Position numbers and translations under genes: made by a program. Shown here piece by piece: positions 16,205-34,521 of a stretch of DNA of 54,142 nt. The notes under the pieces were generated by a model, which saw nothing but the letters and a program-made list of their open reading frames with translations, searched no databases and had not been told where the DNA came from. The stretch is from NCBI GenBank assembly GCA_018812485.1, contig JAHJDO010000140.1:1-54142 (forward strand), read 5' to 3'. The stretch comes from a bacterium (GTDB taxonomy: Bacteria > JAHJDO01). Each line of letters opens with the position of its first letter. Position 1 is the stretch's first letter.

Positions 16205-16962
16205 CCAAGCAAAAAATAGCTAAGATAATCCTTTCTAAGGTATTGGAGATGCCCATAAATAAGTATCTCAAGTATATTAAAAAAACAGCAGAGGGATTAA
16301 TGGAGTCCTTTTCGCCTCATGGCTCTGATAAAAAAATATATGCCAAAGTAATGATTAAAGAAGATGCTCTATGTTTTGAGGTTTTAGATGAACGTCTGGA
16401 GAATATCTATCCCACCGAAAATTGTACTAAAGATAAAACAATCTGTTCATTGAAATGGGTCAACACCAGGAATAAATTTTCTTTTCATATTTTAAAAAGC
16501 CTGCTTGATTACCAAAACAAATATTGGTTTTCCGGCAAAGAGGCAGACTTAAAACCTTTAACCTTAAGACAGTTTTTGTCCTTATATCCATTTCAGTATC
16601 TTGAGCAAAGCCGGCTCTCAAGGTTAATTTCAAATTTAAAGGTTTTAAGTCCAAAAAATCACTCCATCAATCTTGGAAGCTTATTTGTATCAGAGAAAAA
16701 GTACCACTCATATCTCATCAAAGAAATAGTTAAAAATGCTGAAAATGCATTAAAGGATAAGAATATTCAATACCTATCGGCTCAAAAGGGAGTACACTTA
16801 TCCCTGAGAACGATATGTAATTGCAGAAATTTATTTAATATCCCCAGCTATAGAGAAAGAGAGACTTATTCCTATGAAAAGGATGTAACTTTTAGCAGCT
16901 ACATAATTTTCTCAAAAAAAACTTTAATAAAATTCCAGCTGAAGCAGGAGTTTATGAATTGA
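16201..16962 (+). CDS. RpoN (sigma-54)-like protein lacking the activator-interaction region
   Basis: 253 residues. The central and C-terminal parts resemble RpoN. 'QNKYWFSGKEADLKPLTLRQF' (about residues 102-122) matches the core-binding signature ending in LKPLTL. 'EQSRLSRLISNLKVLSP' followed by 'INLGSLFVSE' matches the helix-turn-helix block before the 'FF' segment. 'LSLRTICNCRNLFNIP' stands where the RpoN box (ARRTVAKYRE) belongs, keeping R-T-(V/I) and the later Arg but losing the rest. The glutamine-rich N-terminal region I needed for response to activators is absent. So it may bind core polymerase or promoters without being a normal sigma factor. It lies 5.4 kb upstream of a perfect sigma-54 promoter (gvpA) and 3.4 kb from an NtrC-type activator. 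Assignment rests on motif recognition only. Confidence 0.62.
   Translation: MTKQKIAKIILSKVLEMPINKYLKYIKKTAEGLMESFSPHGSDKKIYAKVMIKEDALCFEVLDERLENIYPTENCTKDKTICSLKWVNTRNKFSFHILKSLLDYQNKYWFSGKEADLKPLTLRQFLSLYPFQYLEQSRLSRLISNLKVLSPKNHSINLGSLFVSEKKYHSYLIKEIVKNAENALKDKNIQYLSAQKGVHLSLRTICNCRNLFNIPSYRERETYSYEKDVTFSSYIIFSKKTLIKFQLKQEFMN
16914..16920 (+). other. Slippery heptamer A_AAA_AAA in frame at the RpoN-like/GIY-YIG junction
   Basis: An eight-A run (16914-16921) is phased so that zero-frame codons are TCA AAA AAA ACT, giving the A_AAA_AAA slippery sequence of -1 frameshifting in bacteria. A -1 slip joins residue 240 of the RpoN-like protein to an open frame that encodes the missing start of the GIY-YIG domain ('NFNKIPAEAGVYELS'). 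Confidence 0.6.
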
Positions 16963-20946: not shown

Positions 20947-20980
20947 GCACAGATAAAAAAATACGGATGAACACAGATGG
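20935..20980 (+). repeat. Left terminal inverted repeat of the GxxExxY cassette
   Basis: Begins CTACACAGAT-gagCACAGAT and continues to AACACAGATGG. It pairs with the reverse complement of 21347-21392, which begins CTACACAGATAATCACAGAT and contains AATACGCAGAT. It supplies the last codons and stop of the NtrC-type gene and the start of the GxxExxY gene. Confidence 0.8.
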
Positions 20981-21344
20981 ACTATACAAGGATTTGACCT
21001 ATAAGATAATAGGATGTTTGTATGAGGTGCATAGAGAATTGGGTAGCGTGCACAAAGAAATTGTTTATCACAAGGCAGTTGCTATAGAACTAAGTAATAA
21101 AAATATTCCGTTTACTGAAGAAAAATGCCTAGATGTGAAGTATAAAGATAAACGAGTTGGGGTATATAAGCCAGATTTTATAATAGATGATAAAGTTATT
21201 CTGGAGATTAAGGTAGTACCGCTTATAACAAAAGCCATATATGACCAAGTTTATTATTACGTCAAAGGAACTAAATACAAATTAGTCTTACTGGCGAATT
21301 TTGGTACCAGTAAACTGGGTATAAAGAGACGTATATACACTTGA
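20943..21344 (+). CDS. GxxExxY protein (PD-(D/E)XK-like fold)
   Basis: 133 residues from ATG 20943, or 125 from ATG 20967, which fits the family start better ('MNTDGLYKDLTYKIIGCLYE'). The name-giving motif appears as 'GSVHKEIVY', followed by the nuclease-like strands 'YKPDFIIDDKVILEIK' with the D...ExK pattern. Function is unknown. The family is widespread and typically sits between inverted repeats of the CACAGAT type, as here. Its start overlaps the stop of the activator gene by four bases. It separates that activator from the gvp promoter region and is probably a recent arrival. Confidence 0.88.
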   Translation: MSTDKKIRMNTDGLYKDLTYKIIGCLYEVHRELGSVHKEIVYHKAVAIELSNKNIPFTEEKCLDVKYKDKRVGVYKPDFIIDDKVILEIKVVPLITKAIYDQVYYYVKGTKYKLVLLANFGTSKLGIKRRIYT

Positions 21345-21400: not shown

Positions 21401-21472
21401 CTACACTTCCCAAACGAACGCTGAAAGCTGTTGTAAAATAAATTCTACACAGATGTAGAAACAACTCTACGC
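21401..21472 (+). promoter_or_regulatory. Candidate enhancer sites upstream of the gvp sigma-54 promoter
   Basis: The 327-base gap between the GxxExxY gene and gvpA holds the right cassette repeat (to 21392), then a set of CTACA/TGTAG motifs: CTACAC at 21401, a perfect palindrome TTCTACA-caga-TGTAGAA at 21443-21460, and CTCTACG at 21465. The palindrome is centred about 130 bases upstream of the -24 element, a usual distance for NtrC-type activators. Caution: CTACACAGAT is also the tip of the cassette repeat, so part of this may be repeat debris. Confidence 0.45.
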
Positions 21473-21577
21473 TTTTGCTTTTAAATTTCCTCTCTTTTTA
21501 AGCTCCTCAGAATTCTTTCAAAAGATATTTAAAAAAAAGAAGATACGCAAGGGCCAAAATTTTTTCAATAGATACTT

Positions 21578-21593
21578 TGGCACGGAAGTTGCT
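21578..21593 (+). promoter_or_regulatory. Sigma-54 (-24/-12) promoter of the gas-vesicle operon
   Basis: TGGCACG (21578-21584), four bases, TTGCT (21589-21593). The GG and GC dinucleotides are exactly 12 bases apart, matching the sigma-54 consensus TGGCACG-N4-TTGCW at every defined position. Predicted start of transcription is near 21603-21605, about 67 bases before the gvpA ATG. Confidence 0.92.
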
Positions 21594-21607
21594 TCTATAC
21601 TTAAGTA

Positions 21608-21642
21608 ACAGAAAACAGAGCGCAGGTTTTTCTGCTTTCTGT
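21608..21642 (+). promoter_or_regulatory. Hairpin at the predicted 5' end of the gvpA mRNA
   Basis: ACAGAAAACAG (21608-21618) pairs with CTGCTTTCTGT (21632-21642) at 10 of 11 positions, with a 13-base loop. It begins within about five bases of the predicted transcription start, the arrangement that protects 5' ends of long-lived bacterial mRNAs. The ribosome site (21657-21664) is outside the stem. Confidence 0.6.
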
Positions 21643-21670
21643 GAATTTTAAACGAAGGGAGGTGGGAAAA

Positions 21671-21877
21671 ATGGCAGTAGAAAAAGCAATCGGTTCATCT
21701 AGTTTGGTTGAGGTTATTGACAGAATCCTTGACAAGGGTGTTGTGGTTGATGCATGGGTTAGAGTTTCTTTGGTCGGTATTGAAATACTGGCTGTTGAAG
21801 CAAGAGTCGTAGTCGCATCAGTCGAGACATACCTGAAGTATGCTGAGGCAATTGGTCTAACCGCAACAGCAGCTTAA
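21671..21877 (+). CDS. gvpA: Gas vesicle major structural protein GvpA
   Basis: 68 residues forming the ribbed protein shell of the gas vesicle. The sequence is close to the highly conserved family throughout: '[20 protein letters not shown]' followed by '[20 protein letters not shown]' and '[15 protein letters not shown]', that is the helix-strand-strand-helix unit. ATG 21671 is chosen over the upstream ATG at 21641 because it follows GGGAGGTGGG and gives the standard [11 protein letters not shown] start. First gene of the operon behind the sigma-54 promoter, and followed by a large stem-loop that probably sets its excess over later genes. Two more GvpA-family domains are at 32944 and 33517. 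Confidence 0.98.
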
Positions 21878-21890
21878 GGATAGTTAAGAG

Positions 21891-21960
21891 AAAGGATTCT
21901 TGCCGAGCCACCCTTGTGAACACAGTCTGTGTTGAAGCATGGTTCGCCAAGAGATTCCTT
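21891..21960 (+). terminator. Large intercistronic stem-loop after gvpA (partial terminator or mRNA stabiliser)
   Basis: Outer arms AAAGGATTCTTGCCGAGCCA (21891-21910) and TGGTTCGCCAAGAGATTCCTT (21940-21960) pair imperfectly over about 17 positions. The apex is closed by AACACA (21919-21924) with TGTGTT (21928-21933). There is no long T-run, so partial attenuation or protection of the gvpA message from 3' decay is more likely than full termination. Confidence 0.6.
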
Positions 21961-21994
21961 CTTCTCCCTAAAGCGAAAGAAAGAGGAAATGAAT

Positions 21995-22708
21995 ATGTCA
22001 GAAGCGCTAGATTTAAAGGATGTAGTGGAAGATGTTGTTTCTTCCTATGAGAAGAGAATCCAGAGTATAGGTTCTGTTTTTGATGTTGATACTGCTCGTC
22101 TAATTTTTGGCGACTCTCAAGGGTCTCTCATTCACACCAGAGAGGAAAGAGGGGAAATTAATACTCAGCTTCGGGACATCCTTGCCAGAAAAGAGCATCT
22201 CAGGAAAAAAGACTTTGACAAGATGATGCAGAGCACCTTGTCAGTTCAGGATCAACGGGAAAAAGAAGTAAGAGGTTTGTTAAATACTTATCTTAATGAA
22301 CAAAAAGAAATGGCTCAGGTTTTAAGGGAAAACTTAGAGAAGTTTAGAAATTCCCTTGCCAGAGGTGAAGTCGGAAGAGTCAAGGAATTCCAAGCAATAA
22401 TTAAAGAAGTCCTTTCAAAGCAGGAAAAGAGAAAAGAAGAGATTACTTCCAAACTGAAGGACTTTCAAAAAGAACAACAGGAAATGGCAAAAAAGCTCAA
22501 GGAGCTTTTAGCAAAAGGAAGGGAGCTTAGGATAAAGGATTTCAAATCAATGCTTAAGGAATTCAATGTTCAAAGAGATGAACGATTGGTGCTTCAGAAG
22601 AGCAGGAAACAAGAAGTGGCCAAAATGCTCAGTAGCTTTAGAGAAGAAAGACAAAGAGCAGTAAAAGAGGACACAAGTAAGAAACGGAAAATTAAAAAGG
22701 AGGAATAA
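21995..22708 (+). CDS. Coiled-coil gas-vesicle cluster protein
   Basis: 237 residues from ATG 21995, chosen because AGAGGA (21982-21987) is well spaced from it; ATG 21989 is too close. Nearly all helical and highly charged. Two related blocks, starting at 'REKEVRGLLNTYLNEQKEMA' and 'RKEEITSKLKDFQKEQQEMA', each continue into a 'VKEFQAIIKEVLS' / 'IKDFKSMLKEFNV' segment, so it arose by internal duplication. The first 30 residues ('LKDVVEDVVSSYEKRIQSIG') resemble the start of the next protein ('MRSMVDDIVVSHDSRSKAIG'), which makes the two paralogues. It probably binds the vesicle surface or acts in assembly. No standard gvp letter is given. Confidence 0.8.
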   Translation: MSEALDLKDVVEDVVSSYEKRIQSIGSVFDVDTARLIFGDSQGSLIHTREERGEINTQLRDILARKEHLRKKDFDKMMQSTLSVQDQREKEVRGLLNTYLNEQKEMAQVLRENLEKFRNSLARGEVGRVKEFQAIIKEVLSKQEKRKEEITSKLKDFQKEQQEMAKKLKELLAKGRELRIKDFKSMLKEFNVQRDERLVLQKSRKQEVAKMLSSFREERQRAVKEDTSKKRKIKKEE

Positions 22709-22710
22709 AG

Positions 22711-23631
22711 ATGGGAATAGCAGAGAGTATGAGGAGTATGGTAGATGATATCGTTGTATCTCATGATTCACGGTCAAAGGCAATTGGCAGTATAGTGTCT
22801 GATACACAAAACATTCTGGGTAGTGCCAGAAAAACTATGAAAAACTTTGCTGTCGATAGAAAAAAGATGAGTGCAGAACAGTCCAGAAATCTGGCTGATT
22901 TTGCAAAGGATTTGTCAAAGAGCACAGGAGATATGATTAATATATTCCATACTAATCGTAAAAAGATGAGTGCGGAACAGGCAAAGGGCTTAGCAGATTT
23001 TGTTAAGGGTATATCAAAGAACGTAGAGAAATTGCGACAGAATGCAAAAGATATGATTAAGGGGTTCCATAAAGACCGTAAACAGACGGGTGCAGAACAA
23101 GCAAGGAACTTAGCAGATTTTGCTGGCAGTCTGGCCGGGGATGTAGATTCAATGTTGATTGGTTTTGGGAAGGACCGCAGCAAGATGTCAAAGGAACTCA
23201 AGGACAAACTTGGCAAAGCAATAAAAGATATCAAAGTATCTGTTGGCGAGACAATCAAAGGTGCCAGAGAACTCGTAGGCGAATATAGTTCTGATATGGC
23301 AAAGGCGAAAGATGCCTGGGAGAGCATGTCTTCCACTTTGGCTAAGGCTAAAAAAAGTGGTGTTGCTCCCAAGATTGAAGTCAGAAAAAAGGTAACTACA
23401 GTTAAAGAAGCTGTGAAAGAAAAACCAAAAGCTGAACCTAAGGCTGTGCCTAAACCCAAAACACCGGAAGGCCAGATATTAGCGTTGCTTGAGGAGCATC
23501 CGCGGGGAAGAACCATGGTTCAGATGGGAGAGGAGATGGGTGTCCACTTTGCCAGCCTTCTTAATCCAATGAAAAAACTGCTTGAAAGCGGCAAAGTTAA
23601 TAAAATTGATAAGAAGTATCGTTTAGTCTAA
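22711..23631 (+). CDS. GvpC-like repeat protein with C-terminal winged-helix-like domain
   Basis: 306 residues. Residues about 40-170 hold four helical repeats built on 'F..DRKKMSAEQ..NLADF'. Counting from the leading Phe, the spacing is 33, 40 (33 plus one heptad) and 33 residues. GvpC, the outer strengthening protein of cyanobacterial vesicles, is built of 33-residue helical repeats, so this is a likely functional counterpart though the sequence is different. A Lys/Pro/Ala linker follows (about 230-250, 'KPKAEPKAVPKPKTP'), then about 55 residues ('ILALLEEHPRGRTMVQMGEE', 'LLESGKVNKIDKKYRLV') with a winged-helix pattern, possibly a protein- or DNA-binding tail. Two bases after the previous gene with AAGGAGG. 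A long reverse-strand open frame here is only a shadow of this biased sequence. Confidence 0.78.
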   Translation: MGIAESMRSMVDDIVVSHDSRSKAIGSIVSDTQNILGSARKTMKNFAVDRKKMSAEQSRNLADFAKDLSKSTGDMINIFHTNRKKMSAEQAKGLADFVKGISKNVEKLRQNAKDMIKGFHKDRKQTGAEQARNLADFAGSLAGDVDSMLIGFGKDRSKMSKELKDKLGKAIKDIKVSVGETIKGARELVGEYSSDMAKAKDAWESMSSTLAKAKKSGVAPKIEVRKKVTTVKEAVKEKPKAEPKAVPKPKTPEGQILALLEEHPRGRTMVQMGEEMGVHFASLLNPMKKLLESGKVNKIDKKYRLV

Positions 23632-23643
23632 GAGATTGTAACA

Positions 23644-23967
23644 GTGGCAAAATTAATAACTTGCGCTTTCTGTAAGGGTACAGGAAAAGATCCTTTTCGC
23701 CTGCTTTCCAAGCTAGCCGACTGCCAGGTATGCAGTGGTACTGGGAAGGTTAAGGTTGGTGAGCCTATAGTTGAATGTGCTTTTTGTAAAGGGAGCGGTG
23801 TTCATCCTCATAGTAGAGTTACCTGCTCTGCTTGTAAAGGGAGAGGTAGCGCTACGCATAAAGGGACTAAAGAAAAATGTCCCAATTGTGGCGGAACAGG
23901 ATATAAAATAGATGGAAATCTTCCATGTAGTGTTTGTGGAGGTAAGGGAGTCATTAGGAAAAATTAA
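23644..23967 (+). CDS. DnaJ-type zinc-finger protein with six CxxCxGxG motifs
   Basis: 107 residues from GTG 23644. It is almost entirely cysteine-rich repeats: 'CAFCKGTG', 'CQVCSGTG', 'CAFCKGSG', 'CSACKGRG', 'CPNCGGTG', 'CSVCGGKG'. DnaJ/Hsp40 carries four such motifs binding two zinc ions, so six suggest three sites. There is no J domain or substrate-binding domain in this protein. A J domain is present in the same operon at the end of a GvpF/L protein (29069-30073), so the two could together supply Hsp40 functions. It probably holds unfolded GvpA or accessory proteins (inference). Confidence 0.85.
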   Translation: MAKLITCAFCKGTGKDPFRLLSKLADCQVCSGTGKVKVGEPIVECAFCKGSGVHPHSRVTCSACKGRGSATHKGTKEKCPNCGGTGYKIDGNLPCSVCGGKGVIRKN

Positions 23968-23988
23968 AAAAGAGAAAGGTAAAGTAAA

Positions 23989-24903
23989 ATGATTGATGAG
24001 ATGACTACAGTAATTGAACCAAATCCTTTGCCGGATTTTGTGGAAACAAAGTATATAAAGGATATTACTGGCAGAGCCCTTTCCTATATTAAGGCTGGCT
24101 TTCCAGTTCATTTTCGAGGACCTTCAGGTACAGGAAAAACTACTCTTGCTATGCATGTGGCCAGTAAACTAGGCAGACCGGTAGTGATGATTCACGGGGA
24201 TGAGGAGTTTACAACCTCTGATTTAGTTGGTGGAGAACATGGCTACAGATTTAAAAAGGTTGTAGACCGCTTTATCTCAACTGTTTTAAAGACAGAAGAA
24301 GATATGGTAAAGTGCTGGGTGGATAACCGTCTAACAGTAGCCTGTAAATACGGGTTTAGTTTAATATATGATGAATTTACGCGTTCCAGGCCAGAAGCGA
24401 ATAATGTTCTTCTTTCCATTTTGCAGGAGAAAATGATGGATCTGCCAATTGGAAGAGGAGGGGAAGAACCGTATTTAAAAGTTGATCCCGATTTTACCGC
24501 TATTTTTACATCCAACCCTGAGGAATACGCAGGAGTTCACAGGAGTCAGGATGCGCTCAGGGACAGAATGATAACCATGGATTTGGACCACTTTGATTAT
24601 GATACAGAAATAGGTATTACCAGAGCAAAATCCAAACTCTCTAAAAAAGATTCCATGAGAATAGTTGATATTGTAAGAGGATTGAGGGAGTCCGGAAAGT
24701 GTGAATTTGCGCCTACTGTTCGTGGCTGTATCATGATTGCCAAAACTCTTAAGGTTCTAAAAATTTCTTCTTCTAATACAAATGGACATTTTAGCCAGAT
24801 GTGTCAGGACATACTTGCTTCTGAGACGAGCAGAGTCGGCTCAAAGACGAATCAGGACAGGGTAAAGGAGATAGTTAAGGGGTTAATTAAGAAATATAGT
24901 TAG
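23989..24903 (+). CDS. gvpN: Gas vesicle AAA+ ATPase GvpN
   Basis: 304 residues of the MoxR-like AAA+ group used in vesicle assembly. Walker A 'GPSGTGKTTLA' (about residue 45), the family segment 'GDEEFTTSDLVGGEHGYRF', Walker B 'SLIYDEFTRSRPEANNVLLS', sensor 1 'FTAIFTSNPEEYAGVH' and the Arg-containing 'DALRDRMITMDLDHFD'. All hallmark residues are intact and length is typical. GvpN is required for full growth of the gas vesicle in other systems. Confidence 0.97.
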   Translation: MIDEMTTVIEPNPLPDFVETKYIKDITGRALSYIKAGFPVHFRGPSGTGKTTLAMHVASKLGRPVVMIHGDEEFTTSDLVGGEHGYRFKKVVDRFISTVLKTEEDMVKCWVDNRLTVACKYGFSLIYDEFTRSRPEANNVLLSILQEKMMDLPIGRGGEEPYLKVDPDFTAIFTSNPEEYAGVHRSQDALRDRMITMDLDHFDYDTEIGITRAKSKLSKKDSMRIVDIVRGLRESGKCEFAPTVRGCIMIAKTLKVLKISSSNTNGHFSQMCQDILASETSRVGSKTNQDRVKEIVKGLIKKYS

Positions 24904-24934
24904 ATTTCTGAATAAGAGAGGAGGTGTATTAATA

Positions 24935-25237
24935 ATGATGACACAGCGCACTTTAAGTGTTAAGGCTATAAAAAGCTTACGTTCTGTAGGCGCCCGGTCT
25001 ATTCCAAAGAGCCAAAGGTCAAGCTCTCTAGAATTATATACGCTCGGAACAGTAAAGGATAGATTGGAGAAAGAAGCATTTGCGTTAGATAAGAGAAGAG
25101 ACACTGTTAAAAGACAATTGGATGATACAAAAAAGAGAATTAAAAAATTACAAAAAGAAGTATATCAGGAACAAGAGGTAAAGACTCATAAGTGTGTGCC
25201 TACTAAGCCTCTGAAAACTATGGCTATAAACTATTAA
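24935..25237 (+). CDS. Uncharacterised small basic protein of the gas-vesicle operon
   Basis: 100 residues (ATG 24935 or 24938, after GAGGAGGTG). The N-terminal half is basic and Ser-rich ('IKSLRSVGARSIPKSQRSSS'), then 'LELYTLGTVKDRLEKEAFAL' and a coiled-coil segment to about residue 85 ('RDTVKRQLDDTKKRIKKLQK'). I recognise no family. Its place between gvpN and gvpH suggests a structural or adaptor role. Confidence 0.7.
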   Translation: MMTQRTLSVKAIKSLRSVGARSIPKSQRSSSLELYTLGTVKDRLEKEAFALDKRRDTVKRQLDDTKKRIKKLQKEVYQEQEVKTHKCVPTKPLKTMAINY

Positions 25238-25275
25238 TAATTGCTGCCAAAGGCAGCTTTACTTAAGGGAAAAAA

Positions 25276-25806
25276 ATGGCTAAAGAAAAGAAAAAAGAAG
25301 AGGGTTTAGATATTGATTTTGGGATGGAGAAACTCGGTTTAGGGGGACTATTTAAGGGAATTGAGAAATTAGTTAATCTGGCAGCAGATTTAAAAGAAGC
25401 CGGAGGGGAGATTAAAAAAGAAGGCGAAATAGACCTGAGCCATCTTAAGAAAGGAATGAAGGGAGTATTTGGCTTTTCTGTAAAAAGCGCAGTGGGAGGA
25501 AAACCAACAGTTGAGACGTTCGGCCACAAAATTAAGAAGACCCCTGAAGGTCCCACGGTTGAAGAAGAGAGAGAGCCTATCGTAGATGTATTTGATGAAA
25601 AAGAAGAGATCCGAGTCTATGCTGAGATGCCAGGGGTAAATGACGAATCTATATCAGTCGATTTAAAAGGGGATATATTAGAAATAATGGCTGTAAGTAA
25701 GGATAGAAAATACCGCAAGGAAATTTTGCTTCCTGCTAAAGTTGAACCTAAAACTTTAGAGAGGAGTTTTAAAAACGGTATCTTAGAGATTAAGATGAAG
25801 AAGTGA
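25276..25806 (+). CDS. gvpH: Hsp20/alpha-crystallin-type gas vesicle protein (GvpH-like)
   Basis: 176 residues. The N-terminal 80 residues are Lys/Gly-rich with 'GMEKLGLGGLFKGIEKLV', a pattern usual in GvpH. Residues about 95-175 form the alpha-crystallin sandwich: 'PIVDVFDEKEEIRVYAEMPG', 'ISVDLKGDILEI', 'YRKEILLPAKVEP', 'FKNGILEIKMKK'. The last strand's 'NGILEI' is the small heat-shock signature. It probably keeps aggregation-prone Gvp proteins soluble. Confidence 0.9.
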   Translation: MAKEKKKEEGLDIDFGMEKLGLGGLFKGIEKLVNLAADLKEAGGEIKKEGEIDLSHLKKGMKGVFGFSVKSAVGGKPTVETFGHKIKKTPEGPTVEEEREPIVDVFDEKEEIRVYAEMPGVNDESISVDLKGDILEIMAVSKDRKYRKEILLPAKVEPKTLERSFKNGILEIKMKK

Positions 25807-25813
25807 ATGGATA

Positions 25814-26749
25814 ATGGCATTAACTGGATTAAGAGAAGATGCGTTAAAGCTGGTTTTATTTGGGGGAAAAGGTGGCGTAGGAAAGACAACCTGTGCAGTT
25901 AGCGCAGGTTTTTATTTAGCTAAAGATTTTAAGGCACTCCTAATTTCAACAGACCCTGCGCATTCGCTTTCTGATAGTTTAGAGCAGAAAATTGGCAGCA
26001 ACATAATAGAGGTGAAAGGAACAAAAAACTTGCGTGCTTTTGAAGTAAGCGCAGAAAAAGCTCTTTCCAGATTCAAAATAGAACATGAAGACCAGATAAA
26101 GAAGATTTTGGATACCTCTACCTATTTAGATGAGGAAGACATTGATTCCATCTTTGATTTGCCTATTCCCGGGATGGATGAGGTAATGGGGTTTAAGACA
26201 ATTGTTGATTTAATAGAGGAAGCGAAGTTTGACAAGTACATTGTAGATACTGCGCCTAGCGGTCATGCGATGAGACTTTTGACTTTGCCAGACCTGCTGG
26301 ATGACTGGGTCAAGGTTATGGCAAAGATGAGATGGAAGTATAGATATATGGTGGAAAGATTTGGCGGGAAGTATAATCCTGACGAAGGTGATGATTTCTT
26401 ATTAACTATGAAAAAGACCGTAAAGAAAATAGAAAATCTTCTTAGGGATCAAAAAAGGTGTGAATTTATAGCAGTTACCATTCCGGAAGATATGGCTATT
26501 TTGGAAACCGGGAGAATGATAAATAATTTGAACGACTATGGCATAAAAGTGAGGCAATTAGTAATAAATAATGTTGTAGAATCGCAGGATTGCGGATTTT
26601 GTAGAGAAAGAAGAAAAGGGCAGGAGAAACATATAAACCAAATAATGAAAAAGTTTGATGACTTAAAAATAACAATTGTCCCTCTGCAATCAAGAGAGGT
26701 CAAAGGCATAGATGCTTTGAATAATTTCAAGGAGGTGTTATTTCAATAA
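25814..26749 (+). CDS. Get3/ArsA-type ATPase of the gas-vesicle operon
   Basis: 311 residues. Deviant P-loop '[16 protein letters not shown]' (about 15-30), '[13 protein letters not shown]' switch I, A-loop '[18 protein letters not shown]', and a CxxC in '[13 protein letters not shown]', the zinc-coordinating pair that joins Get3 dimers. Relatives drive arsenite pumps or deliver hydrophobic tail-anchored proteins. No arsenic genes are near, and the neighbours (Hsp20 before, CDC48 after) point to handling hydrophobic Gvp proteins (inference). Its TAA overlaps the next gene's ATG by one base. The previous gene ends seven bases before its start. Confidence 0.9.
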
Positions 26750-28917
26750 TGGCAAAAAAGAACTCAGCTCTTACTCTAAAAGTAAAAGAAGCTCTTCCAA
26801 AGGATGCAGGAAGGGCTATCGCCAGGATTGACCCGGAAGATATGAAAACTCTTGGAATAGAAGTAGGCGAGGTTGTAGAGATTGACGGTAAAAGAAAAAC
26901 TCCTGTCAAAGCAATGCCATCTTACGCAGAAGATAGAGGGAAAAAGACCATTCAGATGGATGGGATATCCAGAGAGAATGCTCAAATCGGTTTAGATGAA
27001 AAAGTAAAAATTAGTAAAATTGACTATAAGGCTGCTAGCAAAATCACACTCTCTCCTCTAACCGCATCAAGCCTGCTTCAAAGAGACAAAGATACCAGAT
27101 ATATCGGCTCGCTTATGGAGGGGCTTCCTGTAACCAGCGGCGATAGGATTAGAGCTACGCTTTTTGGCTCAAGATCCTGCGATTTCAAGGTATTGGATAC
27201 TGTTCCTGACGGGGTGGTTTTAATAAACCAAACTACTTCAATAAAGATGGAGACAAAGGGGGTAGAAAAAGAGAGGTCAGCCAAAATTTCGTATGAAGAT
27301 ATTGGCGGGCTTGATAAGCCAATCCAAAGAATCAGGGAGATGATAGAGCTTCCTCTAAAATATCCTCAAGTATTTGAAAGATTAGGAATTGATCCGCCGA
27401 AAGGTGTTTTTCTTCATGGTCCTCCGGGTTGTGGGAAAACCTTAATCGCTCGGGCCGTGGCTAATGAGACAGATGCTTATTTTACCAGCATAAGCGGACC
27501 GGAAATTATGGGGAAGTTTTATGGGGAGAGCGAGGCTCGTCTCCGTTCCATATTTGAAGATGCTCAGGCACATGCACCTGCTATCATATTTTTGGATGAG
27601 ATTGAATCTATTGCTCCAAAAAGGGAAGATATGGGCGCTGAAAAACAGGTTGAGCGAAGAGTGGTAGCTCAGCTTCTGGCTCTAATGGATGGATTAGAAT
27701 CAAGGGGACACGTTGTTGTTATAGCTGCAACCAATTTACCTAATACAGTTGATCCGGCTTTGAGACGGCCAGGCCGTTTTGACAGAGAATTATCTATCCC
27801 TATTCCGGATAAAAATGGGCGATTAGAAATTTTACAGATACATACAAGAGGAATGCCTCTGGCAGAAGATGTGACTTTAGAGAAGTTAGCTGAGATTACT
27901 CATGGATTTGTGGGTGCGGATTTAGAATCATTAGCAAGAGAAGCAGCAATGTCAGCGTTAAGAAAGATTTTGCCTAAGATAGATTTTGAGTTAGCGGAGA
28001 TACCTTATGAGACTCTTTTAGAATTGCAGGTTACTATGGACAATTTTTTGGAGGCATTGAAGGAAATAGAGCCTTCTGCTATCCGCGAGGTGTTTGTTGA
28101 AGTTCCTGATGTAAAGTGGGATGAGATTGGTGGGTTAGATGAAATAAAGAAGACTTTAATTGAAGCAGTAGAATGGCCTCTTAAATACAGCAGATTATTT
28201 GAGCACGTCAAAACAGAGCCGCCTACAGGCATTTTGCTCTCCGGTTCTCCGGGCACAGGAAAGACTTTGGTAGCCAAAGCATTAGCTACTGAGAGCGGGG
28301 TTAATTTTATTTCTGTTAAAGGCCCTGAGATTATGAGTAAGTATGTGGGTGAGTCAGAACGCGCTGTCCGTGAGATCTTTAAAAAAGCAAGAATGGCTGC
28401 TCCGTGTATTTTGTTCCTGGATGAAATAGACAGTCTGGTTCCTAAACGCGGAAGCGCTGGAGGGGATTCACAGGTAACGGAGAGAGTAATCAGCCAATTT
28501 CTTACTGAACTTGGAGGGATAGAGAGATTAAAGGGCGTAGTAGTGATTGGTGCGACCAATAGATTAGATATGATAGACACCGCAATATCAAGGGCTGGAA
28601 GGTTTGATATCCATTTAAACTTTCCATTACCTGATAAAAAGACAAGACTCAGAATTTTTGAAATTCATGCTAAAAGCAAACCATTAGATAAAGATGTAAA
28701 TTTAGAAAAATTAGCAGATCAAACAGAAGAATATTCCGGGGCAGATATTGAAGCTATTTGCCGTCGCGCGTCTATGCTTGCTATAAGAGGATATATAGAA
28801 AATCAAAAATCAAAAATCAAAAATCAAAAATTAGAACTCAAGATATCAAAGAGCAATTTTGAAGAAGCTATTAGTCTATTAAAAGAACAGAAAAACGAAA
28901 TAAAAGGGGGTGATTAA
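26749..28917 (+). CDS. CDC48/p97-family double AAA+ ATPase
   Basis: 722 residues. A CDC48 N-terminal double-psi barrel (about 5-90, '[20 protein letters not shown]') and part of the second N subdomain ('[20 protein letters not shown]') are present. Two AAA domains follow: D1 with '[20 protein letters not shown]' and '[15 protein letters not shown]', D2 with '[20 protein letters not shown]' and '[15 protein letters not shown]', each with Arg-finger segments ('RRPGRFDRE', 'SRAGRFDIH'). D1 has Cys in place of Thr in Walker A. This unfoldase is typical of archaea and eukaryotes and is found in some bacterial gas-vesicle clusters. Near the C-terminus (28799-28836) an AATCAAAA repeat encodes '[10 protein letters not shown]', which looks inserted between the last lid helix segments. 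Confidence 0.95.
28799..28836 (+). repeat. Four tandem AATCAAAA-type units inside the CDC48 gene
   Basis: AAAATC-AAAAATC-AAAAATC-AAAAATC-AAAAATT, six to seven base units. They keep the reading frame and code for Asn/Gln/Lys/Ser/Ile-rich filler. The units match those flanking the four-helix-bundle cassette at 19107-19550. Confidence 0.7.
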
Positions 28918-28918
28918 A

Positions 28919-29053
28919 ATGGCAGGGATTATTGAGAAAATTAAAAACTTTTTTAGCAGCATGTGTATATGCAAAGTTAAGGAAGAAAAAGAAGAGCCTA
29001 AACTGCAACAGAAAGAGCCTAAGGTAGAGGAAAAACCTGAAGAACAAAAATAA
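28919..29053 (+). CDS. 44-residue amphipathic/charged peptide of the gas-vesicle operon
   Basis: Starts ATG 28919 just after GGGGGTG and ends TAA 29051-29053, in the short space between the CDC48 and the GvpF/L-J genes. Residues 1-18 form a probable amphipathic helix with two cysteines ('IIEKIKNFFSSMCICK'). The rest is Lys/Glu/Pro. Too short for a recognised family. The good ribosome site and tight fit argue it is real. Possibly a membrane- or vesicle-surface-associated peptide. Confidence 0.55.
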   Translation: MAGIIEKIKNFFSSMCICKVKEEKEEPKLQQKEPKVEEKPEEQK

Positions 29054-29068
29054 TAACCAAGGGGTAAA

Positions 29069-30073
29069 ATGGCTGAAATTGGAAAATATATTTATGGAAT
29101 CATAAATTCTAATACAAACTTCCGCCTTTTTATCTCGGGGGATAGCATACATACGATTCCTTCTCAGGATATCTCGGCTGTAGTAGGAGACTCTGAGATA
29201 ATCGATTACACTTGTATACCTAAGGGTGATGTGGCGAAGATGCTGGTCAGGCATCAAAAGGTTATTGAAGGCATTATGAGTTCAGGGCTTACAATTATTC
29301 CTATGAAATTAGGTACATTCGCTGTTGACGAAATTGAGGTCAAAGATATTTTGGATAGAGGCTATAATCTCATTAAGAAGACTATGGAGAAGACGGGCGA
29401 TAAAATAGAGATTGATATAGTCGCCACATGGAGTGATTTTCCTTCAATTCTTAAAGAGGTTGGGGAAGAGAGAGAAATCAAAGAGTTCAAAGAAAGGCTT
29501 TTAGCTAGTCCAAAAGAGATAACCATAACTGACCAGATGAAAGTAGGGCTTATGGTTAAGAAAGCATTGGATATAAGAAAAGAAAAATATGCTGAAAAGA
29601 TAAAGAATACACTGAAAACTCTAGGCAAGGATCTAAAGATACATGAACTCATGGACGATAATATGGTTGCTAATATAGCCTTTTTGATAAATAAAACCCG
29701 GCAAATAGAGTTTGATAAAAAGATAGAAGGCCTAAACACTGAATTTCATGATGAGTTAAATTTTAGATGCGTAGGGCCGCTTCCACCATATAGTTTCTAT
29801 ACACTTGAGATAAAAAAGATGCAATTTGGCGAGATTGATTGGGCAAAAAAGAAGTTGGGGTTAAATGATTTTGCGGATAAAGATGAAATTAAGAAAGCCT
29901 ATCGAAGAGTAGCCTCCTCTTCCCATCCTGATAGAAATCCGGATGCACCAGCTAAAATTTTTAATGATGTAAACAGGGCTAATAAAATACTTATTGACTA
30001 TTGTAAAGCTCGTGAACAAGCAGGCGAGGAAGAATTTAAAAAGAACGCAATATTGATCAAAGTGAGGGAGTAG
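29069..30073 (+). CDS. GvpF/L protein with C-terminal J domain
   Basis: 334 residues. Residues 1-250 are GvpF/GvpL ('GKYIYGIINS' start, 'MLVRHQKVIEGIMSSGLTII', 'PMKLGTF', closing 'RCVGPLPPYSFYTLEI'). Residues about 258-325 are a J domain: 'DWAKKKLGLNDFADKDEIKK', 'AYRRVASSSHPDRNPDA' with the HPD tripeptide that stimulates Hsp70 ATPase, then 'NDVNRANKILIDYCKA'. GvpF is thought to contact GvpA early in nucleation, so fusion to a J domain would recruit DnaK to nascent vesicles (inference). First of four GvpF/L paralogues in the operon. Confidence 0.93.
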   Translation: MAEIGKYIYGIINSNTNFRLFISGDSIHTIPSQDISAVVGDSEIIDYTCIPKGDVAKMLVRHQKVIEGIMSSGLTIIPMKLGTFAVDEIEVKDILDRGYNLIKKTMEKTGDKIEIDIVATWSDFPSILKEVGEEREIKEFKERLLASPKEITITDQMKVGLMVKKALDIRKEKYAEKIKNTLKTLGKDLKIHELMDDNMVANIAFLINKTRQIEFDKKIEGLNTEFHDELNFRCVGPLPPYSFYTLEIKKMQFGEIDWAKKKLGLNDFADKDEIKKAYRRVASSSHPDRNPDAPAKIFNDVNRANKILIDYCKAREQAGEEEFKKNAILIKVRE

Positions 30074-30080
30074 TAGGAAT

Positions 30081-30851
30081 ATGGAGAAAGAAGGGAAATA
30101 TATCTATTGTGTTGTTGCAACATCACAGGAGAGGAATTTTGGGCCAATAGGAATAGGCAGCAGGGGTGATGAAGTTTTAACTGTTGGCTATAATGACCTG
30201 AGCATGGTTGTAAGCAGTCATCCAATGACTAAATTTACTGTTAATCGCGAGAATATGCTGGCTCACGAGAAGATAATTGAAGAAGTGATGAAGGAATTTG
30301 ATAGCGTACTTCCAGTCAGGTTTGGCACTATTGCCTCTAATGCTGATGAGATAAGGAATCTTTTAGATAAAAGATATAGAGAATTTAAGAACGCATTAAG
30401 GGATATGGACCATAAAATAGAATTAGGCGTTAAAGGGATATGGAAAAATATGGAAATAATCTTTAAAGAGATTGTGCAGGAGAATAAAGAGATTAAGAAG
30501 GCAAAAGTGAAAATTCAAAACGGCGAAGGGAAAAAGAATATACAATCTAAGAGGGAGATTGGTAAAGAGGTTTTTGAAGCTCTGCAAAAGAAAAAAGAGA
30601 AAGAGGCAGAGAAGATAGTAGATGCTTTAAGGAGAACAGCCTTTGACCATAAACTTAATAGGACTATTACAGATGAGATGTTTATGAATGCAGCCTTTTT
30701 GGTAGATAAAGGGAGAGAGAAAGAATTTGATAATATAATGGATGATTTAAGTGAAGAATATAAGGATAGAGTAAAGTTTATGTATGCAGGCCCTTTACCT
30801 GTATTTAATTTTGTGAACATTGCCATTTATCCTGAGGAATGGGAAAAGTGA
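30081..30851 (+). CDS. Gas vesicle protein GvpF/GvpL, second copy
   Basis: 256 residues with the family pattern: 'GKYIYCVVATS', 'VVSSHPMTKFTV', 'MLAHEKIIEEVM', 'VLPVRFGTIASN' (the conserved 'PVRFGT'), a Lys-rich helical middle (about 135-165, 'KKAKVKIQNGEGKKNIQSKR') and the C-terminal 'VKFMYAGPLPVFNFVNIAI'. It starts eight bases after the J-domain copy and overlaps the next copy by 13 bases, so the three are translationally linked. Which copy corresponds to F or L elsewhere cannot be set from sequence alone. Confidence 0.93.
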   Translation: MEKEGKYIYCVVATSQERNFGPIGIGSRGDEVLTVGYNDLSMVVSSHPMTKFTVNRENMLAHEKIIEEVMKEFDSVLPVRFGTIASNADEIRNLLDKRYREFKNALRDMDHKIELGVKGIWKNMEIIFKEIVQENKEIKKAKVKIQNGEGKKNIQSKREIGKEVFEALQKKKEKEAEKIVDALRRTAFDHKLNRTITDEMFMNAAFLVDKGREKEFDNIMDDLSEEYKDRVKFMYAGPLPVFNFVNIAIYPEEWEK

Positions 30852-31603
30852 AAGAAGGTAAGTACATATATTGTGTAATAAAAGTTAATGAACCAAAAAC
30901 TTTCGGTTCGCTGGGAGTTGGCGGAAGAGGGGACGAACTGCATACTATTTGCTTTAATGATATAGCAGTTGTAGTGAGCAATTCTCCAATAATAAAATAC
31001 CCAGTGTCAAGGGAGAATACACTTGCTCATGAAAAGGCAATTGAGGAAGTAATGAAAAAGCATGTAGTTTTGCCGGTAAGATTTTGCACAATTGCTGAAG
31101 ACGAAAAGAAGGTAAAGAAGATTTTAGAAAGAGAGTATGATAAATTCAAAGATCTGTTGGACAAAATTAATAATAAAAAAGAGCTTGGGTTAAAAGCAAT
31201 ATTTAAAGAGGATGTTATTTATAAAGATATCTTGGAAAAACATGAAGACATAAGAAAGTTAAAGGAAGGGCTGGCTTCTAAACCCCCTGAAGCGACTCAT
31301 TACGAACGTATGGAAATAGGGAAAATGGTGGAAACTGCTCTGCAAAAAGAGAAAGAGATTTGCGAAAAGGATATTTTGAATACGCTTTCGCCTTTGGCAG
31401 TAGAGCATAAGACCAATAATACCTACGGTGAACGCATGATTATAAATGCGGCTTTTTTAGTGGAGAAAAGCAAAGAAACAGAATTTGATCAGAAGGTTCA
31501 GGAACTGGACGGGAAATATGGTAATAAAATAAAATTTAAGTATGTAGGAACCATACCGCCGTTTAATTTTGTCAATTTAGTAATTGAAACGGGAGAGTAT
31601 TAA
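30839..31603 (+). CDS. Gas vesicle protein GvpF/GvpL, third copy
   Basis: 254 residues, closely similar in plan to the copy before it ('GKYIYCVIKV', 'NTLAHEKAIEEVMKKHVVLP', 'VRFCTIAEDE', 'KFKYVGTIPPFNFVNLVIE'). Its ATG 30839 lies within the end of the previous gene, and its stop shares a base with the gvpG start at 31603. The Cys in 'VRFCTIA' replaces the usual Gly. Confidence 0.93.
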   Translation: MGKVKEGKYIYCVIKVNEPKTFGSLGVGGRGDELHTICFNDIAVVVSNSPIIKYPVSRENTLAHEKAIEEVMKKHVVLPVRFCTIAEDEKKVKKILEREYDKFKDLLDKINNKKELGLKAIFKEDVIYKDILEKHEDIRKLKEGLASKPPEATHYERMEIGKMVETALQKEKEICEKDILNTLSPLAVEHKTNNTYGERMIINAAFLVEKSKETEFDQKVQELDGKYGNKIKFKYVGTIPPFNFVNLVIETGEY

Positions 31604-31842
31604 TGTTTTTAATTGATGATATATTGCTTGCGCCATTGAAAGGGGTGGTTTGGCTTGGCAAGAAGATTAATGAGGTTATAGAGAAGGAAATCTCTGATGA
31701 AGGGCGGATAAAAGAGAAACTAATGGAATTACAAATGCGGTTTGAACTTGATGAAATAAACGATGAAGGATATAAGAAGCAGGAAGAAGAACTTTTAGCG
31801 CGATTGGACGCTATTAGAAAAGCAAAAGAAGAGGAGGTGTGA
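31603..31842 (+). CDS. gvpG: Gas vesicle protein GvpG
   Basis: 79 residues with the family start 'MFLIDDILLAPLKGVVWLGK' and a helical, charged C-terminal half with 'IKEKLMELQMRFELDEI'. GvpG is a small accessory that binds GvpF/L-type proteins in other systems. One-base overlap with the previous stop; its TGA lies in the Shine-Dalgarno region of gvpO. Confidence 0.93.
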   Translation: MFLIDDILLAPLKGVVWLGKKINEVIEKEISDEGRIKEKLMELQMRFELDEINDEGYKKQEEELLARLDAIRKAKEEEV

Positions 31843-31844
31843 AG

Positions 31845-32099
31845 ATGGCTAATATGGAAGAAGCTAAGAAAGCAGTTGCTGAGTTTTTGAGAAAGACCCT
31901 TAATGTCAAAGATATAAAGGTGATTAAGGTTGGAAAGAGTGAAAAAGGCTGGGAGACGGAAACAGAAGTATATGAAGAAAGTTCATTTATAAAGGCTCTT
32001 GGACTTCCAACAAGAGTAAAGGACCGGAATATCTATGAGGTTAAATTGGATGATAAATTAGAAGTCCAATCCTATGAATGCAAGAGTAAAGAAGAATAA
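31845..32099 (+). CDS. gvpO: Gas vesicle protein GvpO
   Basis: 84 residues from ATG 31845, chosen because GAGGAGGTG (31831-31839) is six bases before it; a GTG at 31839 would lie within that site. Family features: 'VIKVGKSEKGWETETEVYEE' (the GW.vevEv. core) and 'RNIYEVKLDDKLEVQSYECK'. A small accessory of unknown mechanism, kept in most gas-vesicle clusters. Confidence 0.88.
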   Translation: MANMEEAKKAVAEFLRKTLNVKDIKVIKVGKSEKGWETETEVYEESSFIKALGLPTRVKDRNIYEVKLDDKLEVQSYECKSKEE

Positions 32100-32120
32100 G
32101 AATAGGAACAGGATATAAGG

Positions 32121-32936
32121 ATGAAAGGATTATATCTCTATTGTATTAGAGAGAAAACCGAAGGTGTCATAGCTTTTTCTGCCAAAGGTATTGACGGGAA
32201 GGGAAAGGTTTTTACACTCCCTTATCGCGAATTAGAGGCAGTAGTGAGCAAAGTTTCTTTAGAAGAATTTGGGTCGAGTAAGATTCAGAAAAAGGCGCAG
32301 GAAGATCCAATCTGGATTAAAGAGAAAGCGCTTGCTCATGAAGAAGTTATAGAAAAATCTATGAGTAATAATAAAATTTTAGGTCTAATTCCGATGAGAT
32401 TCGGTATCATCTTTAAGAATAAAGCGAGATTAGAAGAAACCCTAGATAAAGACTATTCCAGAATTAAAGAGGTTTTAGAAAAAATTGGAGGGAAAGAGGA
32501 GTGGGGTGTAAAGGTATATCTGAAAGACAGGAAGAAATTCGAGCAGATGGTAAAGCAGAAAAATAAAACAATAAAAGAAAAAGAGAAAGAAATAGCAGCT
32601 TTAGATGAGGGTATGGCCTTTTTTATGGAAGAAGAATTAAAAGAGATTATTTCTAGAGAAGCAAAAAAAAACTTAGCGAACATTGCGGAAGTCTTTTTTA
32701 AGAGTTTAAAGAAGTACGCAGTAGAGTCGGTTGAAAATAAAATTTTGGGGAAAGAATTAACAGGAAGGCAGGAGCTTATGATCTTAAATGCAGCCTATTT
32801 AGTTGCTAAGGAGAAAATCAGCGATTTTAAGAAGGAGGCTGATAATTTAAATCAAGGAATGCAAACAAAGGGATTCTATCTTGAATCCACTGGTCCCTGG
32901 CCTGCTTATAATTTTACCAAGTTAGAGATTAAATAA
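32121..32936 (+). CDS. Gas vesicle protein GvpF/GvpL, fourth copy
   Basis: 271 residues, the most divergent of the four: 'LYLYCIREKTEGVIAFSAKG', 'ALAHEEVIEKSM', 'LIPMRFGIIFKN', a long Lys/Glu helix at about 145-180, and 'GFYLESTGPWPAYNFTKLEI'. The 'STGPWPAYNF' ending is the version common in GvpL. It is separated from the other three by gvpG and gvpO. Confidence 0.92.
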   Translation: MKGLYLYCIREKTEGVIAFSAKGIDGKGKVFTLPYRELEAVVSKVSLEEFGSSKIQKKAQEDPIWIKEKALAHEEVIEKSMSNNKILGLIPMRFGIIFKNKARLEETLDKDYSRIKEVLEKIGGKEEWGVKVYLKDRKKFEQMVKQKNKTIKEKEKEIAALDEGMAFFMEEELKEIISREAKKNLANIAEVFFKSLKKYAVESVENKILGKELTGRQELMILNAAYLVAKEKISDFKKEADNLNQGMQTKGFYLESTGPWPAYNFTKLEIK

Positions 32937-32943
32937 TAAGATT

Positions 32944-33498
32944 ATGGCTACTCTATTAAAGAGCACGGCTATTAAAAGAAGCAATGTAACTCTAGTAGAT
33001 GTCCTGGATAAAGTTTTAGAGAAAGGGGCAGTTATAAACGGAGATATTGTCATAAGGGTAGCCGATGTAGACCTTGTGTTTTTAGGTTTAAGACTTATTC
33101 TCACATCGGTTTCCAAGGCAGAGGAGCTTTCTGGCAAGAGTTTCAGCGACCGAGAGAAGGAAGCTACTCCGGAAGATATAGCGTATATGCAAAAATTGCA
33201 AAGAGAGATAAGAAGGGCCGAAGAAAACATTCCCAAACTAATTGATGTTAGTGATCCCAAAAAGACAGAGCAAGGCTTAGCCAAGTTGGTTTTAACCTTG
33301 GTTGAACTTATAAGAAGACTGATGGAGAAGGAGGCTTTTAGAAGAGTAAAGAGAGGCACGCTTTCCCCTACAGAAGTTCAAAAATTGGGATTAAGCCTTA
33401 AGGCGGTAAAGAAAAAGATAAAAGAGATTCAGGCAATCTTTGGTATTGAGGACGAAGAATTAAATTTAGATTTGGGTCCTTTAGGAAATTTAATGTGA
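32944..33498 (+). CDS. Fusion of a GvpA/J/M-family domain with GvpK
   Basis: 184 residues. Residues 1-65 are a GvpA-family unit of the J/M kind ('VTLVDVLDKVLEKGAVINGD', 'IVIRVADVDLVFLGLRLILT', 'SVSKAEEL'). After a linker, residues about 95-184 are GvpK: 'KTEQGLAKLVLTLVELIRRL', 'MEKEAFRRVKRGTLSPTEVQ', 'LNLDLGPLGNLM'. The two are usually separate adjacent genes. The junction lies within one clean reading frame, so it is a true fusion unless the assembly is wrong. It would tie a minor shell-like protein to GvpK in a fixed 1:1 ratio. Confidence 0.92.
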   Translation: MATLLKSTAIKRSNVTLVDVLDKVLEKGAVINGDIVIRVADVDLVFLGLRLILTSVSKAEELSGKSFSDREKEATPEDIAYMQKLQREIRRAEENIPKLIDVSDPKKTEQGLAKLVLTLVELIRRLMEKEAFRRVKRGTLSPTEVQKLGLSLKAVKKKIKEIQAIFGIEDEELNLDLGPLGNLM

Positions 33499-33516
33499 AA
33501 AAAGGAGGGATAAACG

Positions 33517-33822
33517 ATGGCTGAATCACGAGTAGGGAGTTCGCTTAACACTACCAATTTAGCTGACATCTTAGAGAGGGTTCTGGATAAAGGGATTGTT
33601 ATTGCCGGAGATATTAAGATTCAAATTGCTGATATTGACCTTCTTACCATCAAGATAAGACTTATGATTGCTTCAGTGGATAAGGCTAAGGAGATGGGGA
33701 TAAATTGGTGGGAGCAAGATTCTTATTTATCTACAAAAGCAAAGGATGCAGAAATCGAAAAGGAGAAAGCAGGATTGCAGAAGAGATTAGAGCAGTTGGA
33801 AAAAAAGATTAAAGTCAAATAG
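33517..33822 (+). CDS. gvpJ: Gas vesicle protein GvpJ (GvpA family minor protein)
   Basis: 101 residues. The N-terminal 65 residues match the GvpA/J/M core ('NLADILERVLDKGIVIAGDI', 'KIQIADIDLLTIKIRLMIAS', 'VDKAKEMGINWWEQD'), with a charged coiled-coil tail ('EKEKAGLQKRLEQLEKKIKV'). 'NWWE' after the second helix is typical of J rather than A. Probably caps or nucleates the shell. GAAAAAAGGAGGG precedes it. Confidence 0.9.
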   Translation: MAESRVGSSLNTTNLADILERVLDKGIVIAGDIKIQIADIDLLTIKIRLMIASVDKAKEMGINWWEQDSYLSTKAKDAEIEKEKAGLQKRLEQLEKKIKVK

Positions 33823-33840
33823 CAGAATCAGCATTTTATT

Positions 33841-34521
33841 ATGAAAACGTTAATTTATGTTCCAATTATACATATGAGTGCGGACTTAGGCAGTATTGCT
33901 AAGCAGGTAAATAAAAGAGGTATTGCAGATTTTGGAGAGGAATTCTGGAAGAAACACAGAGAGACTGTGTCCGGCTTCTGGGATTCAATTGTTAAATACT
34001 TCGCTAATTTAGAGGTTAAGGGTTTTAATATATACCAGGATGGCTTGGTAGCTGACGGAGAAGTTGGCCAAAAAATAGTAGAAGAAGGGGTTAAGTCTGG
34101 CAGTAAAAATTATGAAGTTATTGATGATTTATTAAAAAAAGGTGCAGTTTTGGTTCAAACGGAGAATTTCCCTCTGGTTAAAAAAGAAAGAGATCGTATT
34201 GTTGAAATTACCCAGGCTAAGACGATGACAATGAAGTTAATTGCTTATTTAATGTATAAGTTAACTAAAGATAGGCTTTTAAAGAAAAGAGATAATTATA
34301 TAACCAAGAGGATAGATGAAACCTTAGAACATAGTGGGGGAAAAGGCATTCTCTTTTTAGGTGCATACCACAACATAATACCTGAACTCGCCAAAAAAAT
34401 TCAGATAATTGAGGTAAAGGAAGCAAAAAAAGTAAGGGATTATCAAAGATTGCTTCTTTCATTCAGAAAAAATAAAGAAGAATTTGAAGAGTTAGCAAGG
34501 TATTTAATCTCACCAATATAA
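33841..34521 (+). CDS. Conserved protein of unknown function closing the gas-vesicle operon
   Basis: 226 residues, soluble. It begins 'MKTLIYVPIIHMSADLGSIA' and contains 'IYQDGLVADGEVGQKIVEEG', 'KKGAVLVQTENFPLV' and 'GGKGILFLGAYHNIIPEL'. I have an impression of similar uncharacterised proteins (VYVPIIHTEADMGS-like start, FIGAxH motif) in prokaryotes but no known activity. The conserved His, Asp, Glu and His residues suggest an enzyme or metal site. It follows gvpJ by 18 bases in the same direction and is the last gene before tRNA-Ala. The 177-base gap after it shows no clear terminator. Confidence 0.75.
   Translation: MKTLIYVPIIHMSADLGSIAKQVNKRGIADFGEEFWKKHRETVSGFWDSIVKYFANLEVKGFNIYQDGLVADGEVGQKIVEEGVKSGSKNYEVIDDLLKKGAVLVQTENFPLVKKERDRIVEITQAKTMTMKLIAYLMYKLTKDRLLKKRDNYITKRIDETLEHSGGKGILFLGAYHNIIPELAKKIQIIEVKEAKKVRDYQRLLLSFRKNKEEFEELARYLISPI

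Follow-up and report, generated by a model that had tools for sequence, protein, structure and literature searches.

Why would a gas-vesicle operon carry so many genes for handling proteins? The question is raised by a bacterial contig of 54,142 nucleotides (JAHJDO010000140.1, assembly GCA_018812485.1), all of which was analysed and which we will term the window. In its gas-vesicle (gvp) operon, shell and assembly genes are mixed with genes for an Hsp20, a Get3-type ATPase, a CDC48-type unfoldase, a DnaJ-type zinc-finger protein, and a GvpF that carries a J domain (J-GvpF). We propose that the operon probably makes gas vesicles and brings along a dedicated set of proteostasis proteins to serve its hydrophobic shell protein, with J-GvpF, Get3, and CDC48 acting as a relay. 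The proposal is based on one sigma-54 site, a run of 19 genes, intact motifs in CDC48, Get3, and GvpN, a conserved HPD motif in the J domain, the linkage of these genes across genomes, and their parallel divergence.

The operon is a single co-directional run of 19 closely spaced genes on the + strand (21671-34521), with gvpA first and a gene for a protein of 226 amino acids (aa) last. Neighboring genes overlap or lie less than 40 bp apart, except for a 111-bp spacer 3' of gvpA that contains a stable hairpin. (A seeming 152-bp spacer between CDC48 and J-GvpF is occupied by a 44-aa gene.) Gene identities are from curated Pfam or NCBIfam models with their cut-offs, and most parts score well above these. 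The promoter site and the parts of the operon are:

21578-21593, +, sigma-54 −24/−12 site TGGCACGGAAGTTGCT, 78 bp 5' of the gvpA start
21671-21877, +, gvpA, main shell protein, 68 aa (NCBIfam PRK09371, 130.7 bits, cut-off 100)
21888-21972 (approximate limits), +, stable RNA hairpin 3' of gvpA (folding z-score −2.9)
21989-22708, +, helical repeat protein 1 in the gvpC position, putatively GvpC-like (charged, 58-residue period)
22711-23631, +, helical repeat protein 2 in the gvpC position (33/40/73-residue periods, z 6-8)
23644-23967, +, DnaJ-type zinc-finger protein without a J domain (PF00684, 45 bits; six CxxCxGxG motifs)
23989-24903, +, gvpN, AAA+ ATPase (TIGR02640, 338 bits, cut-off 266.8)
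24935-25237, +, cc3, small coiled-coil protein, adjoining gvpN in many relatives
25276-25806, +, Hsp20-type chaperone in the GvpH position (PF00011, 30.5 bits)
25814-26749, +, single-domain Get3/TRC40 ATPase with CxxC (TIGR00345, 263 bits, cut-off 135)
26749-28917, +, CDC48/p97-type double-ring AAA+ unfoldase with a CDC48 N domain (TIGR01243, 928 bits, cut-off 802.65)
28919-29053, +, 44-aa gene with an amphipathic N terminus and a charged tail (similar open reading frames [ORFs] in the same place in related loci L006, L014, L022, L025, and L034)
29069-30073, +, J-GvpF, a GvpF with a C-terminal J domain with HPD (PF06386, 165 bits; PF00226, 43.4 bits)
30081-30851, +, GvpF/L paralogue 2 (PF06386, 216 bits)
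30839-31603, +, GvpF/L paralogue 3 (PF06386, 229 bits)
31603-31842, +, gvpG (PF05120, 70 bits)
31839-32099, +, gvpO-like gene (PF05800, 24.3 bits, cut-off 25)
32121-32936, +, GvpF/L paralogue 4, GvpL-like (PF06386, 192.5 bits)
32944-33498, +, GvpA/J-GvpK fusion in one ORF (PF00741, 51 bits; PF05121, 103 bits)
33517-33822, +, gvpJ (PF00741, 65 bits)
33841-34521, +, U226, conserved gas-vesicle-linked protein of 226 aa (no Pfam or NCBIfam match)

Is this a gas-vesicle cluster? By the curated models, it has a canonical GvpA together with the assembly genes for GvpN, F/L, G, J, and K. An earlier note on this DNA had listed shell genes, an A/J-K fusion, four GvpF/L, gvpG, gvpN, Get3, CDC48, a zinc finger, and a J domain, and the curated models recover all of these. 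It had also named GvpH and GvpO, which hold up less well. The Hsp20 domain itself is clear, but the GvpH model is missed (18.9 bits against a cut-off of 22), and GvpO falls slightly below its own cut-off. The two repeat genes, cc3, the 44-aa gene, and the U226 gene are additions to that list. We think it highly improbable that the product is a protein compartment derived from gvp genes rather than a buoyancy organelle, because GvpA fits the canonical shell model and the usual assembly genes are all present. (This alternative would fit a close relative, L007, in which GvpA is fused to PH/GRAM-like domains and has other add-ons, and it would fit the several related metagenome-assembled genomes [MAGs] that are named for groundwater or sediment, where floating is of uncertain use.)

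How is the operon controlled? The earlier note predicted a sigma-54 promoter, and the −24/−12 site upstream of gvpA is the sole zero-mismatch match to the sigma-54 consensus when the whole window is scanned. Sites scoring over 10 bits lie 5' of gvpA in 39% of relatives, as compared to 2.5% of control gene starts (Mann-Whitney P = 5e-13). Two candidate regulators are encoded upstream:

17790-19100, +, histidine kinase with a receiver domain, candidate partner of the NtrC-type protein (PF00512, PF02518, PF00072)
19570-20946, +, NtrC-type sigma-54 activator, candidate regulator (PF00158, 236 bits, with receiver and Fis helix-turn-helix domains)

The activator had been described as adjacent. It is indeed nearby, but it does not directly adjoin gvpA, as a GxxExxY gene (20943-21344) sits between them. 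A full-length rpoN is encoded elsewhere in the genome. With a −24/−12 site, an NtrC-type activator, and rpoN, transcription of the operon is predicted to be sigma-54-dependent. There is a precedent: the gvp cluster of Serratia sp. ATCC 39006 also has a sigma-54 promoter 5' of gvpA1 and an NtrC-type activator (GvrA), and control of gvpA by sigma-54/NtrC was demonstrated there (PMC4982088).

Do the protein-handling genes encode working proteins? CDC48 has its N domain and two AAA rings with intact catalytic motifs, as in archaeal VAT and eukaryotic p97, and its best sequence match among solved structures is a VCP-like ATPase (5g4f). Across relatives, the Walker and arginine-finger residues are about 100% conserved, and the D1 pore loop KFYGESE is 93-100% conserved. 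Get3 is a single-domain protein of 311 aa with a GKGGVGKT P-loop and a CxxC; archaeal Get3 is among its best solved-structure matches. In relatives, the P-loop lysine and glycines are 100% conserved and the CxxC cysteines 88% and 98% conserved. The catalytic motifs of GvpN are also intact. The best NCBIfam match of the Hsp20 is an archaeal Hsp20 model (135 bits, slightly below the cut-off of 140). On haloarchaeal plasmids (L097 and L098), an Hsp20 gene lies immediately 5' of CDC48 with no gvp genes alongside, and the Hsp20 and CDC48 of the operon may descend from such a pair.

The J domain is at the C terminus of the first of the four GvpF/L proteins. The structural model of J-GvpF is confident (predicted local distance difference test [pLDDT] 92.7), and structures matched by its predicted fold include crystallized GvpF (6l5d and 4qsg) and known J domains; the domain has a J fold with an HPD motif. 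HPD is present in 49 of 50 J-GvpFs. In an alignment of 38 sequences with a mean column identity of 39%, 17 columns are invariant, and HPD accounts for three of these. The operon's other DnaJ-like part is the zinc-finger protein. DnaJ has four CxxCxGxG motifs and joins J domain and zinc finger in one protein; the operon has both elements of an Hsp40, but as separate proteins, with the J domain on GvpF, and its zinc-finger protein has six motifs, as do most of its relatives. The operon had been called self-contained, which does not hold for Hsp70: it contains no DnaK, and the only full DnaK gene of the genome is elsewhere (G000:C33). The J domain would therefore have to use the host's Hsp70. GvpF reportedly acts as the main partner of GvpA and likely as its chaperone (PMC9501494; PMC11445434), so the fusion would bring Hsp70 to newly made shell subunits.

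Are the protein-handling genes more than chance neighbors? We collected relatives by a GvpN-anchored scan of GTDB species genomes and ranked them by similarity to the window's GvpN, so the fractions below hold for this clade and not for all gas-vesicle bacteria. The scan found at least 80 loci in many phyla. Identity to the window's GvpN reaches 86% in MAGs that are named as other phyla, although some of these labels may be wrong. Parts were counted in the 48 loci where gvpN is followed by 9 kb or more of sequence. Among the matches listed, Hsp20 is present in 46 of these, CDC48 in 43, Get3 in 38, J-GvpF in 38, and the zinc finger in 32; Hsp20, Get3, CDC48, and J-GvpF occur together in 31 loci, and 22 have the zinc finger as well. 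The co-occurrence of CDC48, Get3, and J-GvpF in gvp loci, which the earlier note had proposed to check, is thus recurrent, and this genome is one of many with the combination, a cluster type that has probably spread horizontally. The order of the genes is often kept as well; that of the window is almost unaltered in, for example, Phycisphaerales (L023), Elusimicrobia (L027), Ignavibacteriales (L029), and Omnitrophota (L034).

CDC48 is tied to gas vesicles across genomes. Of the five genomes analysed from the window's own phylum (all of one genus), two have gvp genes, and only these two encode CDC48 and Get3, in a single copy each and within the operon. CDC48 is present in 39 of the 40 genomes that hold relatives, and 40 of its 42 copies are in the gvpN locus. 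Among 384 Omnitrophota genomes, 8 have CDC48, 9 have GvpN, and 7 have both (P = 1e-12); the eighth CDC48, where no GvpN was found, is on a 4.9-kb contig (L106) that also bears J-GvpF. Among 341 Elusimicrobiota genomes, 5 have CDC48, 6 have GvpN, and 5 have both, always on the same contig (P = 2e-10). Thus, all of the CDC48s found across these 725 genomes are gas-vesicle-linked. This restriction, which sets the operon-type CDC48 apart from VAT and p97, would account for the sporadic occurrence of CDC48 in the two phyla. Furthermore, the distance matrices of GvpN, CDC48, and Get3 are correlated (Mantel r = 0.80-0.87). In a quick tree, the gas-vesicle CDC48s are mostly one group, separate from haloarchaeal and rhizobial CDC48s. 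(The exceptions are a long-branched copy from Methylosinus, which groups with the outgroup, and two second copies away from gvpN, which fall among the gas-vesicle CDC48s.)

Given the linkage of CDC48 to gvpN across genomes, we rejected the idea that the whole gene set consists of chance neighbors. The earlier note's view of an assembly operon rich in protein-handling modules is supported: CDC48, Get3, and J-GvpF are conserved with the operon. The chaperones might instead be a general stress module with many clients that was co-transferred with gvp genes, so that the association is ecological, and the haloarchaeal Hsp20-CDC48 pairs without adjacent gvp genes fit this idea. We consider it improbable because CDC48 is found only with gvp genes in Omnitrophota and Elusimicrobiota, because CDC48 and Get3 diverge along with GvpN, and because the J domain is covalently joined to GvpF with a near-invariant HPD.

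If the set serves the shell protein, how might it work? J-GvpF would hand GvpA to the host's DnaK and would form a split Hsp40 together with the J-less zinc-finger protein. Hydrophobic subunits would be shielded by Get3 and Hsp20, and GvpN would drive elongation. CDC48 would extract misassembled GvpA/J from aggregates or dead-end ribs and return it. We infer every step of this relay, and the order of the steps is conjecture.

A related question is whether these proteins build vesicles or take them apart. CDC48 (p97/VAT) is classically an extractor or segregase, its aromatic pore-loop residues are conserved in the relatives, and its linkage to gvp genes would be expected equally well if CDC48, Get3, and the J and zinc-finger proteins served turnover, by dismantling vesicles and clearing aggregates when cells must sink. 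This seems unlikely to us because the chaperone genes are midway in a gvpA-led run and would be produced together with the shell genes, and because the J domain is borne by GvpF, which is a GvpA-binding assembly factor (PMC11445434).

Several observations weigh against our proposal that the set serves assembly. First, Serratia forms vesicles with a gene set that is described without CDC48, Get3, or J-GvpF (PMC4982088, available part), and we found none of the three in the comparison clusters of Halobacterium, Octadecabacter, and Spartinivicinus. Gas vesicles in general thus do not require these modules. Second, Get3 is absent from about one fifth of the relatives, and so is J-GvpF. Third, the source organism is uncultured, and the expression of the operon, its vesicles, and the proposed binding are all predicted from sequence.

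How much of this was already known? Hsp20 and ArsA-family ATPases were described in gvp clusters from several phyla in 2010 (Castillo and Saier; PMC2963123), and an energizing role was already proposed in that survey. Those clusters also share gvpN/F/L/G/J/K with the operon. In contrast, the vesicle-linked ArsA of the survey has two domains and about 600 aa, and the operon's Get3 has one domain and a Get3-type CxxC; CDC48, J domains, and the zinc-finger protein are not mentioned in the available part of the survey. The Serratia cluster also has three GvpF, GvpH, GvpN, GvpG, and GvpK, but it is arranged as two operons, and CDC48, Get3, and a J domain are not among the genes described in the available part of that source (PMC4982088). 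On plasmid pMSC49b of Methylosinus sp. C49 (NZ_AP022334.1), RefSeq annotates a gvp cluster with a sigma-54 regulator, GvpH, and a gvpA/J-K fusion. This cluster also encodes a CDC48 family ATPase and a protein related to U226, but we detected no Get3, J-GvpF, or zinc finger, and its CDC48 is on a long branch. Three other papers that were consulted for descriptions of clusters (PMC2405808, PMC8382752, PMC7325909) yielded nothing on CDC48 or J domains. In short, sigma-54 control, Hsp20, and (two-domain) ArsA in gvp clusters are known, and CDC48 is seen in the Methylosinus annotation. We found no description of the CDC48/J-GvpF/zinc-finger set in gas-vesicle clusters in the open-access literature, excluding preprints.

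A broader proposal, which we regard as evenly balanced, is that these loci are a horizontally transferred and widespread class of operon that couples shell assembly to proteostasis. In this class, GvpF would have become an Hsp70 co-chaperone with a six-motif zinc-finger partner, Get3 would be the carrier, CDC48 would be a vesicle-only disaggregase, and U226 would be a new family of unmatched fold. This cluster type bears on how cells keep aggregation-prone GvpA soluble until it is incorporated into the growing rib. CDC48 and Get3 suggest that ATP drives further steps besides that of GvpN, and a single HPD tripeptide on one protein provides a handle on whether Hsp70 belongs to the pathway. In the ultrasound-reporter field, where only a minority of cloned gvp clusters yielded detectable vesicles in E. 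coli (PMC10344784), the set is a candidate for use as a chaperone kit.

U226 has no Pfam or NCBIfam match, and its AlphaFold2 model (pLDDT 92, predicted template modeling score 0.87) has no fold match in the PDB at E ≤ 0.001. Its invariant residues are H11, H39, QDG66-68, E108, and E116. U226 is present in 16 of the 384 Omnitrophota genomes, and it adjoins gvp genes in every context-checked copy with sufficient contig, including in genomes where GvpN was not found. (This check of context leaves out two copies that begin at contig edges and the copies in genomes G367, G182, and G054.)

The two charged helical repeat proteins (21989-23631) occupy the interval between gvpA and gvpN, which is the place of gvpC in Halobacterium. 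Their periods are 33, 40, 51, 58, and 65 residues (also 73 in protein 2), which is similar to the repeats of 32-40 residues in GvpC (PMC9501494). No Pfam or NCBIfam model for GvpC matches them, so their homology to GvpC is suggested by repeat period and position only. The C terminus of protein 2 resembles a winged helix by eye, and a similar ORF is present in most relatives. The hairpin that trails gvpA is a candidate processing or attenuation point and may uncouple the level of gvpA mRNA from the downstream operon.

Upstream of the regulators, an ORF (16201-16962) encodes only a sigma-54 DNA-binding domain (PF04552, 38.5 bits) and has no clear homologue among the related loci. Beside the regulators are two small genes, for a 23S rRNA intervening-sequence protein (PF05635, 19125-19496) and for the GxxExxY protein; both families are often met as scattered inserts.

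We rejected an assembly artefact because another genome of the genus (G003) has the same flanking genes and a larger version of the cluster. This version (L006:8872 to L007:7766) is in the same chromosomal place. It encodes three zinc-finger proteins of the DnaJ type, a second Hsp20, and a separate GvpK, and it has two small genes, one of which shows a winged-helix-like match. One GvpA there has a zinc-ribbon-like tail, another is joined to PH/GRAM/Vps36-like domains, and a PH-like protein has an end that resembles Hsp20. Finally, some genomes carry gvpN twice on a single contig or have a pair of gvp clusters on separate contigs (L108 in G157; L117 and L118 in G030).

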